Positions 1 to 9,696 of a stretch of 64,000 nucleotides of DNA are shown piece by piece; the stretch's first letter is position 1, and every line of letters starts with the position of its first letter. The position numbers were made by a program, and so were the translations under genes. The stretch covers positions 228,039-292,038 of the forward strand of contig JAKAWX010000002.1 of assembly GCA_021816865.1 (NCBI GenBank), given 5' to 3'. The notes beneath the pieces were generated by a model. That model made no database searches. It saw nothing but the letters and a program-made list of their open reading frames with translations, and was not told where the DNA came from. This stretch comes from Thermoplasmata archaeon. GTDB lineage: Archaea; Thermoplasmatota; Thermoplasmata; Lutacidiplasmatales; UBA184.

Positions 1-267
1 GCTCGACCCGGCTCTCGCGGGCAGACCGTTCAGGCTCTCGACGTCGAAGTCGGTGGCGACGACCTCTCCGCCGAGCTCGGTGAGGGCGCTGAGGAGCCGC
101 CCGAAGCCCGTGCCCAGCTCGAGGATCCGTCGTCGGTCCGCCGAGCCCAGCTGGCGCGAGACGATCGCCCGCTCCACTTCGGTGACCCTTTCCCGACCCC
201 GCCACAGCGCCGCGAAGTCGAACCGCGCGTAATCGCTGACGGACTCGTGCGCGTCGCCGTTCGTCAT
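1..267 (-). CDS. Class I SAM-dependent methyltransferase, N-terminal part (cut by window edge)
   Basis: The 89 visible residues begin at an ATG at 267 and run off the left edge. They contain the Rossmann motif I ILELGTGFGRLL followed by the post-I acidic strand VVATDFD, the usual SAM-binding signature of class I methyltransferases. The substrate cannot be read from this fragment. The start codon overlaps the TGA stop of the upstream glycosyltransferase fusion by four bases (ATGA), so the gene is probably translated as the last visible member of an operon that also holds a cupredoxin and a secreted membrane protein. A role in methylating a surface glycan or lipid is only suggested by context. 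Confidence 0.85.
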   Translation of the reverse strand, partial: MTNGDAHESVSDYARFDFAALWRGRERVTEVERAIVSRQLGSADRRRILELGTGFGRLLSALTELGGEVVATDFDVESLNGLPARAGSS

Positions 268-2300
268 CGGGCGGACGGGAGGGCCGACGGATACGTTACT
301 CCCGTCGATGCCTCCGACGGCTCGTGCCCTTCCACGTACTGGGAACGGAGAGCCTCGAATCGACGGGAAACGAAGGCGACTCGTCCGAATCGCGTCACCG
401 TCCGGAAGGCCCCGGTCTCGTTGGAACGATTCCGCGCGTTCCTCCAGAGACCGGCCAATTGAAGGTACGTCGCGAGGAGAGGGTAGGCGACCGCGTCCGC
501 GACCCGGAGCGCGATCGGCGCGGGGAGGGAATCGGGGTCGTCGGAAGGTCGAGCGCGGACCGCATACAATCGCGGGATCTCGGTGGCCATCCACGGGCAG
601 CGGGCGAGGAGTCCCTGATAGTAGGCCGCTCCCAGGATAGGCTTCGCCGAGAGCGCGTCGCGGGCCGTCAGGAAGTCTCGGCGTTCGGTCAGGGCCTCGG
701 CGGCCGTCGAGTCCTCGATCGTGTAATTGAAGCACGCGACCGGCCCGAACCCGCGGCCCCGACGCCACCGCTCGATCCGCAGGGCGAGGTACGTGTAGCC
801 CAGGAACCACCAAAGCGCCCCCTTTCGAACGACCACGAACAGGTCCAGGTCGTCCTCCGGCTGCGGTTCGCCGTAGGCGACCGAGCCGGTGACGGAGACG
901 CAGCGAACCCAATTTCGGGTCGGTCGAAGCGGTCCGTTGAACAGCTCGAGCGCGTGGCGAAGGGATGCCTCTCCTCGGGTCCGCCGCTCGTCCTGCCCGA
1001 CCGTGGTCGCGCGTGGGGCAAGGACCAGGTCACCGTCCACTCGCGCGAGGCTGGGATGCCCTTCCAGCCAGCCCCGAGTGTCCCCCGGCGTAAAGGGCCC
1101 GTCGGGAGGGAGGAGGGAGATGAGGTCCGGCAGCGCTATGCCCGTCCCGAATCGCGCCGCCACGTCCACTAAGGTCGCTACCCGCAGCTCGAGAGGCGGG
1201 GCGGTCAGTCCCCTCGCGTTGTGCGAGAGTCGAGCGCGCGAGAGCGAGTGAGGGGCGGTTCGCCGAGCCGGGGGTCGAATCCGCTGCCACCGGACGTGGT
1301 CCTTCGGTGGGGGCAGTCGGTCCCAGATGGAGAGGGTGGCCGCCGCGAGCTCGAGGGCCGTCAGCGCCACGAACCGTCGCCAGCCCCGGGTCTGACGGCG
1401 CGCCGATCGCTGGACCACCTTCGCCACCGCACCCGGTGTAGACCGCGCGTGTCCCACGAGGGTACTCGGCCGTCGACCGAGGGCCGCGGTGACCTGGGAG
1501 TTTCCGACGTGGATCCGTCGGCGCTGGTGGAGATGGTCCGTGAGTCGCGTCGGGATCGCGATCTGTACGCGGGCCCCGGGCGCGTAGAGTCGTCGCCCTC
1601 CGTGCTGCGCCAGCCAGACCCCGAAGTACGAGCCGTCGTTGACGATCCCCTCCGGAAGCGGGGGGTGAGGGTCGAGGCTGATGAGGAGAAGCTCGTCGGA
1701 GAGGTGGGCTCCTCCGCCTTCCGACGCGAGGTGGAGATGGAACTCGTGATGCAGGTCCCACATCAGTCGCAGCAGCGGGGCCATGCGACCCGGGGCGTCG
1801 GGGGGCACGACGGGGCGGGCCATGACGGCGTAGGGAGGGGAGTGCCCTCGTGCGCGCCGAAGGAGTTCGGCGACGGCTCCCGGCGCCGCCTCGGCGTCCG
1901 AGTTCAGGAGCACCACCGCGTCGCCCCGGGCGCGGTGGAAGATCTCGCGAAGGGCCCGCGCCTTTCCGGTCCGCTCCGGCTCCACGACGACCATGACCCT
2001 CGGGTCGCGGGCGGCCACGCTCCGGGCGATGTCGACCGTTCGGTCCGTGCAGCCGCTCGCGACGACCCAGATCTGCCCCCAGCGGACCCCGTCCGGAAGG
2101 TCTTGGGCCAGGAGCGACTCCAGGGCCCGCTGGATGTGGGTCTCTTCGTTGTGAGCTACGACGCCCCCCGCGAGCTCGAGACGAGCCTCCGTACGCCCAT
2201 CGCCCGCCCGCCGGGTCGCGCCTCCCACGTCGACGACTCCTGGGCCCTCGCTCAATCTATCCCTCCCGTGCCACACGACTCCCGAAGACCCATGGCCCAT
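264..2300 (-). CDS. Family 2 glycosyltransferase fused to a winged-helix/nucleotidyltransferase
   Basis: A 678-residue protein with two enzyme-like halves. Residues about 43-300 are a GT-A family 2 glycosyltransferase: VVAHNEE at 47-53 and the DxD-equivalent LLNSDAE near 131-137. Residues about 375-440 look like a winged helix. A minimal nucleotidyltransferase follows, with a Gly-Ser pair near 471 and, about twelve residues on, the metal-binding DDLDLF. Free-standing proteins with this helix-plus-nucleotidyltransferase order are known; the fusion to a glycosyltransferase is unusual. It starts 6 bp after the cupredoxin gene and overlaps the methyltransferase. The first ~45 residues precede the recognisable domain, so the true start may be internal. 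A hydrophobic stretch near residue 630 could associate with the membrane. Donor and acceptor are unknown; glycan or lipid modification at the cell surface is an inference. Confidence 0.85.
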   Translation of the reverse strand: MGHGSSGVVWHGRDRLSEGPGVVDVGGATRRAGDGRTEARLELAGGVVAHNEETHIQRALESLLAQDLPDGVRWGQIWVVASGCTDRTVDIARSVAARDPRVMVVVEPERTGKARALREIFHRARGDAVVLLNSDAEAAPGAVAELLRRARGHSPPYAVMARPVVPPDAPGRMAPLLRLMWDLHHEFHLHLASEGGGAHLSDELLLISLDPHPPLPEGIVNDGSYFGVWLAQHGGRRLYAPGARVQIAIPTRLTDHLHQRRRIHVGNSQVTAALGRRPSTLVGHARSTPGAVAKVVQRSARRQTRGWRRFVALTALELAAATLSIWDRLPPPKDHVRWQRIRPPARRTAPHSLSRARLSHNARGLTAPPLELRVATLVDVAARFGTGIALPDLISLLPPDGPFTPGDTRGWLEGHPSLARVDGDLVLAPRATTVGQDERRTRGEASLRHALELFNGPLRPTRNWVRCVSVTGSVAYGEPQPEDDLDLFVVVRKGALWWFLGYTYLALRIERWRRGRGFGPVACFNYTIEDSTAAEALTERRDFLTARDALSAKPILGAAYYQGLLARCPWMATEIPRLYAVRARPSDDPDSLPAPIALRVADAVAYPLLATYLQLAGLWRNARNRSNETGAFRTVTRFGRVAFVSRRFEALRSQYVEGHEPSEASTGVTYPSALPSAR

Positions 2301-2306
2301 CGGGCC

Positions 2307-2945
2307 TCACTTGGGCGAGCGCCGCGAACGTCGCCAGATAGCGAGGCCAGAACCGACTCCGACCACGACCACCACGGCGCCGAGGACGATGAGCACGGTC
2401 GGTGTAAGGAGAGTCGATGATCCGCCCGACGGAGCGGCGACCGACGAGACCAGAGTCCCGTGCATCCCGGACTGGAAATGCCCGGGGATCTCGCAGACGA
2501 ACTCATACGTTCCGACGGACGGCGCCGTGAAGTTCGCGTACGCTCGGGCCCCCGGGGTTCCCGGCAAGCTGAGGTTCACGAGGGGCGGGTGGGCATCAAA
2601 GAACGCGAAGAGCTGGGCGGGCGTGTCGTTCGCGGGGATCGTGAAGTTCGCGACGGGCGACAGGACGAACGTGTGGGGGATTGACGCCTCCTGGATCACG
2701 ACGAGTTGAACGAGGGCACCCGGGACGACATCCAGCACGTCAGGCACGAATGCGAGCGACGAGGTCGCCTGCACGCTGATGTCGCTCGTGGTCGCCGGCG
2801 CAAGCTCCTGGGGACCACTCGGGGTCGTGGGAGCCAATCCCGAGGCAAGCGCGAGTGCGACCAAGCCAACGATTACCCCGACGATCAGCGGGGTCCGTAG
2901 GAGTCCCGCCGATCCCGGGCCGATCCGACCGCTCGAGTCGGTCAC
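2307..2945 (-). CDS. Membrane-anchored cupredoxin (small blue-copper protein)
   Basis: 212 residues with a membrane segment at 18-36, a plastocyanin-like domain at about 55-168 and a second membrane segment at 181-204 followed by an Arg/Lys-rich tail. The type 1 copper ligands are visible: His91 (IPHTF), Cys151 (EFVCEIPGH), His156 and Met161 (GMHG), in the canonical spacing. Such proteins shuttle electrons on the outer face of archaeal membranes (sulfocyanin and halocyanin are examples). The start is GTG at 2945, preceded by GGGAGGT, and overlaps the stop of the small upstream ORF by four bases. No terminal oxidase gene is visible nearby, so the redox partner is unknown. Confidence 0.9.
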   Translation of the reverse strand: MTDSSGRIGPGSAGLLRTPLIVGVIVGLVALALASGLAPTTPSGPQELAPATTSDISVQATSSLAFVPDVLDVVPGALVQLVVIQEASIPHTFVLSPVANFTIPANDTPAQLFAFFDAHPPLVNLSLPGTPGARAYANFTAPSVGTYEFVCEIPGHFQSGMHGTLVSSVAAPSGGSSTLLTPTVLIVLGAVVVVVGVGSGLAIWRRSRRSPK

Positions 2946-5451: not shown

Positions 5452-8400
5452 ATGGCCGCGTTGCCGTCCGTACGAAAAGCAGTCTATGCGTTGCCGATCG
5501 TTGTCGTAATCGCCGCGTTGATGGTGCTCCCCGCCGGAGCGTTCGCCGGCGCCACGTCCGTCACGGGGACATCCCTGACGAGCGCGAGCGGGTCGGGCGC
5601 TCACGCGGCGGCCCTAGGCTCGACCCCCTGGGGCGGGAACTTCGCCGCTTTGAAGGGTTCGTTCCCCACCGTGCCGACCTCGACTCCTTTCTCCCCGGGA
5701 CATTATTCTCCTGCCTCTCCCAGCGTATCTCCCCCGTCGACCGCGGGGTTCTCGGCGAGCTCGACCGTCGCCAGCGTCCTGGGTTCGATCTCCTCGGGCC
5801 GAGTGCCGTCCTACGCGGCGTACCTTCCGAACTACAACCTCCTCGCCCACCCGGCGTCGAACGCTGGCCAGCTCATCAGTCCGTTCTACACGGCCTCTCC
5901 CGCCCCGATGGGTGTGGGGGACCTCGGAATCGGTTCGAGCGGACCCTACCAGTACTGGACTCCGTCCTTTGACGGCCAATTCACGCTCAACAGCTACAAC
6001 GCGACCGCCGGTCAGCTCTACGAAGACACCGGTGGGTACTACTGGAACGGCCTCCCCGCCAACCAAGCCTCGAGCCCGTACCAGTCCGGCGTCCAGCTCA
6101 ACACCGTGACGACCAACGTCTCGATTCCCGGCTCGACCACGGCGGCGTTCTGGACCCAGAACGTCATCGACTTCTCGGGCAACCAGCTCCAGTTCATCGA
6201 CAACGTCTGGAACTTCTCCGGGGCCTCGCTGAACCCGGGGACCCTCTACTCCTTCAACGGAACGTTCGTCCCGGGCCAGTTCTACTACGACCTCGGGCCC
6301 ACGATGCCCCTCGCGTTCCCGGTCACGATCGCGCTCTACAACAACGTCTCGAACAACCCGAACGGCCGCAGCCAGGTGACGTTCGGCTACCGGGTCACGG
6401 AACCGGGCCACGTCTTCGCGGGCATCTACGACACGGTGGTCTTCAATTCCATCGCTCCCCCGCTGCCCGCGGACTTCCTGGTGAACGGCAACACGGCGAC
6501 GCCGATCGGCGCGCTCTACGACTCCGAGCTCGTCTTTACCGGACCGGGCGCGGGCTCGAACGCCGTCATCAACTCGGTGAACGGCAGCCTGAGCCTGATG
6601 CGCCAGGTCGGCCCGGCCTACTCGGGAGTCCCGGCCGCATTCGACTATGGCGGCGACACCGGCGAGACGGCGGTCGGAGTGGCCAGCACGTGGTTCGGTA
6701 CGACCGAGAACGTCACGACCGGTCCCTCGCTGCTCTACGGGCTCTGGAACACCCTTCAGACCGGCAGCGGGAGCATCCACTTCACGGCGCACGTGACGCC
6801 GAGTTACGGTTTCGTGTTCGTCGGGCCTGCGCTCGCCCAGTCGTACAATTTCAGCTGGGCGCCGACAGACCTCTCGGGGACCGTTAGCATTTACCTCCCG
6901 CCCGTGCTCTTCGGCTACAACTTCACCGTGTTCGCCGACGGCTACCATCAGTTCGCCGGCACGCCGTTCTCCGCATCGACCACCGATACGGTCGCGATGA
7001 CCGCCGCTCCGGCGGTCCTCGACGCACCCCTCTACATGGGGTCGGCGGCCCAGGCGTCCGCGTTGGCCGCCGCGGTCGGCGGCAGCGCGAGCGCCCCGTA
7101 CACCTTCAAGAATCTCGAGGTGCGGGTGAACCTCACGTTCAATCGGTTGAACGACTGGGGTTTCCCGACCTTCAGCCTCGTGCAGGCGACCGGGTTCTCG
7201 GCCGCGGTCGACGTCAACAACGTCTACGTCGGACCCAACTGGTACGGGATCACCCAGTGGTTCCAGTCGCCGTTCGGGTACACCGGCAACATCCCGTATC
7301 TGGGTCAGCAGTACGTGGTCTACGACGGGACGAATGACGTCTTCTCGAACCTCGACCTCTTCGGCGTCCAGATTCCGGCCGGGGTGATGCAGGGCGGGGC
7401 GATCTCGCTCTGGAACGATGTCGGTGCGAGCGTCACCGACGTCAGCTCCGGCTACGGCTCCTTCGGCGTCTGGGCTGCCGCATCGCCGGGCACGACCGTG
7501 ACGAACTCGATCTCGGGCCTCGGCGCGGCGGTGTTCAGCGTGATCGCGTCCTCGGGTGCGGTGGGGACCAACCTGAGCGCCGAGTTCGGCGCGGCGGACG
7601 TCTTTGACGAGGGCGGCTCCGGGGGGACGTTTACCACCCTGGACGCCTCCTCTGGCTCGGTCGGCTTCCAGAGCTTCTGGGCGAACGCCACCACGCTGGA
7701 CGGGGTCTCGGCCGTTGCCGGTTCTGAGGCGGTCTACGCGACCGGCGGGATCGGTCTCACGGTGACGACGGTCAGCGCGAGCGGCGCCGCAGGAGTCGTC
7801 GGGTACGGCGTCACGACGAGCTTGGTGAGCGGCGTGACCGCCACGAACGCGAGCCCCGTCGCCGTCGGCTTCCTCGGGGGCTCAGGCGCGTCGGTCTCGA
7901 ACGTGCGGGTGAACGGCAGCACGGGCGTCATTTTCGAGAGCTTCCTGTCGGGTACGCTCACGGGCCTCACCGCCGAGAACTCAAGCTCCGGTGTGGCGAT
8001 GCTCGGTTCCGAATGGGTCAACGTCTCGAGCGTCAACGCGACCACGGGCAGTCAAGCGGCGCTCGTCGACACCTCCTCGTTCGTCTCCCTTTCGGGAATC
8101 TCGGCCGGCCCCGCGAGCGGTGGCTCGACCATCGTGGCGTCGACGAGCGTGAACGTTACGGGGGTCACGGTCTCGGGCGAAGACGTCGGAACCGCCATCC
8201 AGAGCTCCCAAGAGGTTACCGTGCGCGGGACTTCGGCCTCGGACAGCTCGGTCGGGGTCTTCGCCCTCGGTTCGTCCTGGGTCACCGTCGACCAGACCAC
8301 GGTCTCGGGCCAGTCGCTCGCGGTCGGACTCAACCAGGACACCGACGCGAGCGTGAACGGGGTCACGGCGACCAACGCGACCCTCTCCGGGCCCTGGGCG

Positions 8401-9696
8401 CCGGGATTCGTGTTCACGACTTTCGGCGCGCCGGCCCTCGCCGCGGTCGTGACGACCCTTGACAGCCTGACGACCGTGTCGAACGTCACCGCGACCACCT
8501 ACCCTTCCGCGGTCTACGACGGCGGGTCGGGTGCCGCGCTCACGGGCAGCGTCACCTTCTCGAACGTCAACGCCACCGGCGGCGAGTTCGCGGTCCTCCT
8601 CAACGGAACCGAGTTCGCCACGCTGTCGAACATCGGGGCGTTCCGGGACGTGGTCGGCGTCGAAATGAACGACAACGCCCAGTCCAACCTGATCACGGGA
8701 AGCTCGTTCGTCGGCGACTCGAGCTTCGGCGTCTACATCGTCTACGGGCAAGGGAACCTGGTCTACAACAACAACTTCGTGGGCGACAACGGCGCCACCG
8801 CCACCTACGACCCGACTCACGTCCAGGCGTGGAGCTACGTCTACAACTCGTTCGAGCTCAACGGCGTGGGCAACTACTGGGCAGACTGGCACACGTACAC
8901 CTCGTACGGCGTCCTCGCCCCGTACTACGTGTCGAGCGGCGTGTGGGACTACTATCCGATCGGCCCGGACGAGTACCAGATGTTCGCGGTCACGTTCAAC
9001 GAGACCGGCCTCGTGGCCGGGACGAGCTGGACCGTGAACTTCGACGGCATCGCCGAGACCTCCTCGGCGGCGTCGATCGCCTTCTCGGTGCCGATGGGCA
9101 GCTACCCCTACGCGGTCGGGCCGGTGCCGGGCTATTCGGCGTCCCCGTCGACCGGCACGGTCGCCGCGGGTCCGGGCGCCTACCTGGTCGGAGTAACCTT
9201 CTCGCGGTTGACCTACGCGGTCACCGTCAGCGAGGGAGGGCTCCCGAGCGGGACCAGCTGGAACGCGACCGTCAACGGCGTGACCCAGTCGACCTCGGGA
9301 ACGACGCTCGTCTTCTACGAGCCGAACGGAACGTACACATACGCGCTCGGTTCGGTCGGAGGCTTCAACGTGAAGGGCGGGAACGGCAGCGTGACCGTGG
9401 CCGGCCAGCCGACCAGCATCTCGGGGATGTACTCGCCGTCGAACCCGGCGCCGCTCGCGACGAAGTCGGACCTCAACAACTACTTCGCGCTCGCGCTCCT
9501 GGTCGCGGTGATCGCGCTGGTAGTCGGGTTGATCGCGCTCTTCCTCCGCCGCGGAGGAGGCAAGTCGTCCCCTCCGTCGTCGCCCCCCGAGGCCTGGACG
9601 CCTCCGGCCGGCGCGAGCGGCCCCGGCTCGCCCGCGAGCGGGAGCTCGAGTTCGAACACCTGGAGCGAGGGCCCGGAGAAGCCCCCGTCGTCGTAG
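5452..9696 (+). CDS. Giant surface protein: thermopsin-like domain, beta-helix and C-terminal anchor
   Basis: 1414 residues. An N-terminal signal segment (about 9-32) leads to a thermopsin-family (peptidase A5) domain at about 135-520, recognised by LISPFYTASPAPMGVGDLG and later Gly/Tyr/Asn-rich sheets. Thermopsins are acid proteases secreted by archaea; I could not assign the catalytic residues. Residues about 620-1170 are a long right-handed beta-helix of NosD type, with repeated V..VNAT / TVSG / GVTATN rungs ending in GVGNYWADW. Two Ig-like repeats follow, starting near 1182 (FNETGLVAGTSWTVNFDG) and near 1260 (VSEGGLPSGTSWNATVNG). A membrane helix at about 1345-1366 and a Pro/Ser/Gly tail end the protein. 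It is rich in sequons and Thr/Ser, as expected for a glycosylated S-layer-associated protein. Transcription is probably leaderless from the TATA element at 5419-5427. Confidence 0.85.
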   Translation: MAALPSVRKAVYALPIVVVIAALMVLPAGAFAGATSVTGTSLTSASGSGAHAAALGSTPWGGNFAALKGSFPTVPTSTPFSPGHYSPASPSVSPPSTAGFSASSTVASVLGSISSGRVPSYAAYLPNYNLLAHPASNAGQLISPFYTASPAPMGVGDLGIGSSGPYQYWTPSFDGQFTLNSYNATAGQLYEDTGGYYWNGLPANQASSPYQSGVQLNTVTTNVSIPGSTTAAFWTQNVIDFSGNQLQFIDNVWNFSGASLNPGTLYSFNGTFVPGQFYYDLGPTMPLAFPVTIALYNNVSNNPNGRSQVTFGYRVTEPGHVFAGIYDTVVFNSIAPPLPADFLVNGNTATPIGALYDSELVFTGPGAGSNAVINSVNGSLSLMRQVGPAYSGVPAAFDYGGDTGETAVGVASTWFGTTENVTTGPSLLYGLWNTLQTGSGSIHFTAHVTPSYGFVFVGPALAQSYNFSWAPTDLSGTVSIYLPPVLFGYNFTVFADGYHQFAGTPFSASTTDTVAMTAAPAVLDAPLYMGSAAQASALAAAVGGSASAPYTFKNLEVRVNLTFNRLNDWGFPTFSLVQATGFSAAVDVNNVYVGPNWYGITQWFQSPFGYTGNIPYLGQQYVVYDGTNDVFSNLDLFGVQIPAGVMQGGAISLWNDVGASVTDVSSGYGSFGVWAAASPGTTVTNSISGLGAAVFSVIASSGAVGTNLSAEFGAADVFDEGGSGGTFTTLDASSGSVGFQSFWANATTLDGVSAVAGSEAVYATGGIGLTVTTVSASGAAGVVGYGVTTSLVSGVTATNASPVAVGFLGGSGASVSNVRVNGSTGVIFESFLSGTLTGLTAENSSSGVAMLGSEWVNVSSVNATTGSQAALVDTSSFVSLSGISAGPASGGSTIVASTSVNVTGVTVSGEDVGTAIQSSQEVTVRGTSASDSSVGVFALGSSWVTVDQTTVSGQSLAVGLNQDTDASVNGVTATNATLSGPWAPGFVFTTFGAPALAAVVTTLDSLTTVSNVTATTYPSAVYDGGSGAALTGSVTFSNVNATGGEFAVLLNGTEFATLSNIGAFRDVVGVEMNDNAQSNLITGSSFVGDSSFGVYIVYGQGNLVYNNNFVGDNGATATYDPTHVQAWSYVYNSFELNGVGNYWADWHTYTSYGVLAPYYVSSGVWDYYPIGPDEYQMFAVTFNETGLVAGTSWTVNFDGIAETSSAASIAFSVPMGSYPYAVGPVPGYSASPSTGTVAAGPGAYLVGVTFSRLTYAVTVSEGGLPSGTSWNATVNGVTQSTSGTTLVFYEPNGTYTYALGSVGGFNVKGGNGSVTVAGQPTSISGMYSPSNPAPLATKSDLNNYFALALLVAVIALVVGLIALFLRRGGGKSSPPSSPPEAWTPPAGASGPGSPASGSSSSNTWSEGPEKPPSS

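Follow-up and report, generated by a model that had tools for sequence, protein, structure and literature searches.

A glycosyltransferase 2 domain fused to a Pol-beta-type nucleotidyltransferase in Thermoplasmata, and its association with SAM methyltransferases

An open reading frame that joins a family 2 glycosyltransferase (GT2) to a nucleotidyltransferase (NTase) raises the question of whether the gene is real and, if it is, what pathway its product could serve. We addressed both points for a frame lying within a 64,000-nucleotide stretch of contig JAKAWX010000002.1 (the window), from a Thermoplasmata archaeon of the UBA184 lineage.

A single-frame gene shared by related species

On the minus strand, one open frame runs from window position 2300 to 264 and encodes 678 aa from its first ATG, with no internal stop. 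Its exact start, either this ATG or position 2255 (663 aa), is uncertain, because a coding-score caller preferred the TTG at 2255 and homology to relatives begins around residue 40; residue numbers of the parts listed below and of the NTase half refer to the 663-aa form. The same frame, likewise uninterrupted, was found in 18 named contigs, one of them 97% identical and the others 42-55%, which represent at least 18 related species, and the named relatives that carry it are Thermoplasmata MAGs, UBA184 included. The preliminary description of this DNA had asked whether the fusion recurs elsewhere and whether it could stem from an assembly join. Because the 18 single-frame homologs sit on other contigs, both a join and a chance frame are ruled out, and the GT2-NTase fusion is genuine. 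At L127, a contig titled "bacterium" (DAIDCO010000025.1) encodes a fusion that shares 55% identity with the window protein; it is probably a mislabelled archaeal MAG.

The gene, its parts and the two methyltransferase genes that follow it are listed below (window coordinates unless stated).

264..2300, minus strand: fused GT2-NTase gene (open frame, coding-score caller, homologs)
1278..2186, minus strand: GT2 (GT-A) domain, residues ~24-326, without a predicted TM helix (Pfam, model, Foldseek, hydropathy)
1893..1904, minus strand: NSDA motif of the GT2 domain, DxD-like, its N and D conserved in alignment A2
1635..1640, minus strand: invariant ND of the GT2 domain, which may correspond to TED/ED, the catalytic base of processive GT2s (alignment)
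1512..1526, minus strand: QRRRI motif of the GT2 domain, with QxxR kept and the Trp of QxxRW absent (alignment)
1200..1277, minus strand: disordered linker, residues 327-352 (pLDDT < 50)
1017..1196, minus strand: winged-helix-like domain, three helices and two strands (secondary structure of the model; aligned with other-class NTases)
552..995, minus strand: Pol-beta-type nucleotidyltransferase core (Pfam, structure models, Foldseek, profile-profile comparison)
882..887, minus strand: G-S motif of the NTase (24/24 sequences)
843..854, minus strand: D-D-x-D motif of the NTase (24/24 sequences)
714..734, minus strand: third strand of the NTase, C-x-N-x(3)-[DE], ending in the candidate third carboxylate, to which a catalytic role is provisionally assigned (C 24/24, N/S 24/24, D/E 23/24)
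327..515, minus strand: helix and hairpin at the C-terminus of the NTase half (model)
1..267, minus strand: start of the next operon gene, which runs off the window, a SAM methyltransferase whose C-terminus carries a zinc-ribbon-like CxxC pair
L040:8076-9335: second SAM methyltransferase, with a split-barrel-like N-terminus, following the first

Two folded halves with conserved active sites

The window protein is ordered as GT2, a disordered linker of ~26 residues, a winged helix and a Pol-beta-type NTase, and its AlphaFold2 model consists of two well-folded domains (mean pLDDT 86) on either side of the disordered stretch 327-352. By its sequence, the identity of the N-terminal half as a GT2 is unambiguous (PF00535, residues 47-168, E=1.1e-20, 74.7 bits against a cut-off of 23.3). 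Its putative metal/nucleotide motif is an N[SGA]DA variant, accompanied by the invariant ND. In Foldseek searches the best match was the archaeal mannosyltransferase PcManGT (6yv7), followed by hyaluronan synthases, and PcManGT was also the best sequence-profile match. No TM helix was predicted in the GT2 half (highest 19-residue hydropathy 1.31). A processive, cellulose-synthase-like GT2 was considered and rejected, given QRRRI in place of QxxRW and the lack of predicted TM channel helices.

The second half scored 16.2 bits against PF01909, under the cut-off of 21, in the single-sequence Pfam search. In profile-profile comparison, however, its family matched the NTases of other classes of the phylum (alignment A8) with 99.2% probability, and one of the latter, from L117, passes the PF01909 cut-off with 24.0 bits; judged from these sequence comparisons, membership in the Pol-beta NTase superfamily is firm through its relatives. 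The 24 sequences behind the motif counts given above come from families f1 and f11, and G-S, DxD and the Cys are invariant also in the f19 and outer-class NTase sets. Modelled alone, the NTase half reached a pLDDT of 88 and a pTM of 0.86, its core being preceded by three helices and a pair of short strands; the model thus predicts a winged helix with a two-strand wing, although no Pfam HTH or winged-helix match was obtained for the window protein or the 24 members. The claim of the preliminary description, a GT2 and a winged-helix NTase in one frame, is supported.

Foldseek matches of the NTase half were weak (best E=0.014) and included AadA, ANT4'' and MNT, the aminoglycoside NTases scoring E 0.014-0.07, prob about 0.8-0.9 and TM 0.22-0.27. 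AadA and ANT4'' are enzymes that place AMP on a sugar hydroxyl. Because these matches are weak, the acceptor of the NTase cannot be read off from them. No LicD (PF04991) match appeared at E<=1 for the window protein or at E<=0.1 for the 24 members, nor did either give a Tam41 match in Pfam; a search for the NTase on plasmids returned no match, and a related-locus search with a broad NTase alignment gave no usable pattern. Both active sites look intact and both halves are probably active, since NxD, ND and QxxR of the GT2 and G-S, DDxD and D/E of the NTase are conserved. A dead NTase serving as a scaffold is disfavored by this conservation.

Fused and separate states

In a class-wide sample of 200 genomes, the single GT2-NTase frame was confined to the genus of the window. 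In other members of the genus and family each half has its own gene: either the NTase precedes the GT2 on one strand and the two overlap slightly, or the genes converge and their 3' tails overlap by 47-230 bp. Such convergent coding overlaps, long for antiparallel genes, were observed in L145, L146, L147, L148, L150, L151, L153 and L157. In family f11 the order is GT2, stop, NTase (TGA in G047, TAG in G369), which reads as a two-gene state. A stop dividing the two halves, raised earlier as evidence against a true fusion, is confined to this distant family; within the genus of the window no frameshifted or stop-split gene was seen. The two genes are adjacent in families f1, f11 and f19. Fused members cluster in trees of the domains, but 4-5 changes are needed to explain their distribution, so that one origin with later rearrangements and a few origins are both possible.

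Methyltransferases and other genomic partners

The preliminary description also held that the NTase normally stands alone. Outside the genus it is indeed a separate gene, but in most sampled NTase-bearing genomes it adjoins the GT2 and/or a SAM methyltransferase. In the window, the start of the downstream methyltransferase overlaps the stop of the fusion by 4 bp (ATGA). The split-barrel assignment of the second methyltransferase derives from weak PNPOx-type matches in one relative and from reading by eye. In genome G015 (L041:1115-3337, plus strand) a 740-aa protein consists of the NTase fused to a split-barrel-like SAM methyltransferase. In family f19 the NTase, in a form too short for a winged helix, and the GT2 have three genes nearby: those for the ~76-aa orphan, for the split-barrel methyltransferase and for another GT2. 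Outside the class, in f37, f45 and f42, a homologous methyltransferase (homology 99.9%) is encoded close to the NTase, as is a large membrane protein that in one case weakly matches PMT mannosyltransferases; most of these neighborhoods also contain a sugar epimerase/dehydratase-like gene.

Among 293 genomes of the phylum, all 32 methyltransferase-positive genomes and all 19 genomes positive for the ~76-aa orphan were also NTase-positive (35 strong NTase positives), counts whose Fisher values ignore kinship and are descriptive only. The SAM methyltransferase is the deepest and most widespread partner of the NTase, more so than the GT2. Methyltransferases were absent near the f11 GT2-NTase pair within the stretches read, and methylation is therefore not a universal part of the arrangement. 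Some NTase genes lack this GT2 and lie among genes of other kinds, and other glycosyltransferases (GT2, GT4-like, GT-C-like) recur in f1 neighborhoods.

Several further genes were observed around these loci. The orphan family (alignment A6; L059:6336-6569, L107:8365-8595 and others) has no Pfam match and the consensus ...SER..KYL.S..G.C.G.D.K..SYLFL....RRPVGDKVVENLDYEI; within the 293 genomes it occurs only where the NTase does, and a divergent second type exists. Upstream of the fusion and on the same strand, window 2307-2945 (minus) encodes a secreted protein that is cupredoxin-like by eye, a cluster that recurs just upstream in L041 and L045. A protein of 1414 aa, predicted to lie at the surface and carrying GLPSGTSW-type repeats close to its C-terminus, is encoded at window 5452-9696 (plus). 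At L040:6725-8041 (plus), a 438-aa membrane protein, GT-C-like by eye and with no Pfam match, belongs to cluster c2, which recurs in 10 neighborhood loci.

Proposed role and alternatives

Because the linkage of NTase, methyltransferase and glycosyltransferases spans families and includes two kinds of fusion, it argues for one pathway, and because the genomic company points there, this pathway would belong to glycan or glycolipid assembly. Our preferred reading, held tentatively and as close to an even call, is that the protein is bifunctional and serves, in Thermoplasmatota, a glycoconjugate pathway for sugar transfer, nucleotidyl or phospho decoration and methylation of a surface glycan or glycolipid. 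The cytosolic GT2 half, with its core resembling PcManGT and hyaluronan synthase, would use a nucleotide-sugar to glycosylate an acceptor, which would be a glycan or be linked to a lipid. The metal-dependent Pol-beta-type half would next add a nucleotidyl (or LicD-like phospho-alcohol) group to that acceptor; the two SAM methyltransferases of the operon would then methylate the decorated acceptor. The winged helix may dock the acceptor or a partner, although it could also bind nucleic acid, and the fusion would keep two successive steps together. Here the surface glycan or glycolipid as substrate, the succession of steps and the nature of the transferred group are what we infer. Precedents exist in the NTase-fold LicD/FKRP enzymes, which use CDP conjugates on glycans (PMC11666461), and in WbdD, which puts phosphate and then methyl on a glycan end (PMC3482155). 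Because of these precedents and the glycan-type neighbors, we favor decoration of the acceptor over activation of the donor, with modest confidence.

Under donor activation, the coupling suggested in the preliminary description, the NTase would make a nucleotide-activated small group or sugar for direct use by the fused GT2. Fusing two consecutive steps would channel such a donor, and both active sites appear intact, but the weak fold matches are to the acceptor-modifying AadA, ANT and MNT enzymes and not to pyrophosphorylases that form sugar nucleotides. The most widespread partner of the NTase is, moreover, a methyltransferase, and known NDP-sugar synthesis is the work of Rossmann-like pyrophosphorylases and not of Pol-beta-type NTases; we consider this explanation unlikely.

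Two other explanations are distinctly improbable. In the first, the NTase would switch the pathway by AMPylating or UMPylating the GT2 or the methyltransferase, in the manner of GlnE or MntA; this agrees with its weak structural similarity to MNT antitoxins, which AMPylate a partner, and with its fusion to one or the other enzyme depending on the genome, but no conserved target motif was identified and the NTase is also found without this GT2 among other gene kinds. In the second, the predicted winged helix would bind RNA, and a hypermodified nucleoside would be the joint product of NTase, methyltransferase and GT2. NTases and methyltransferases each feature often in RNA modification; against this, the neighborhoods are rich in glycan genes, membrane GT-like proteins included, and the f19 NTases lack room for the winged helix. 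Least probable is a Tam41-like lipid-phosphate cytidylyltransferase making a CDP-lipid head for subsequent glycosylation and methylation, given that Pfam yields no Tam41 match and that in Archaea CarS supplies CDP-archaeol, despite a long hydrophobic helix in the NTase half near residues 581-608. A review of the NT fold does place phosphatidate cytidylyltransferases such as Tam41 near antibiotic NTases (PMC11646218).

The fusion combines known families in a new way, inside a module for which the literature searched yielded no description, although the clusters of an archaea-wide gene-fusion screen (PMC11237513) may list it. A broader proposal, which we put forward as speculative and rather unlikely, is that the Pol-beta NTase, SAM methyltransferase, GT2 and small orphan constitute an undescribed Thermoplasmatota module that caps archaeal surface glycans or glycolipids with a methylated nucleotidyl or phospho group, its enzymes fused in differing pairs by species. 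The two kinds of fusion (GT2-NTase and NTase-methyltransferase) and the strict co-occurrence link several poorly annotated families to a single pathway. Genes named merely "GT2", "nucleotidyltransferase" or "methyltransferase" in databases thereby become a testable unit, which offers a handle on how Thermoplasmata, most of them uncultured, build their surface glycans and glycolipids.

Comparison with known systems

The GT2 half shares its GT-A core with PcManGT and the hyaluronan synthases, but it has no predicted TM helix, lacks the Trp of QxxRW and is fused to an NTase. With the aminoglycoside NTases AadA and ANT4'' and with MNT, the second half shares a Pol-beta-type core, G-S, DxD and a candidate third acid; it differs from them in its winged-helix N-terminus, C-x-N third strand and large C-terminal region, and has no sequence match above the Pfam cut-off. 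The LicD/FKRP phosphotransferases resemble it as NTase-fold enzymes of glycan assembly (PMC11666461), whereas the window NTase does not match PF04991. Finally, WbdD of the E. coli O9a O-antigen carries a kinase in place of an NTase and has no GT2, so that the analogy is one of logic only, but this fused kinase-methyltransferase likewise joins successive modules in one protein, adding a terminal phosphate to a glycan and then methylating it (PMC3482155).
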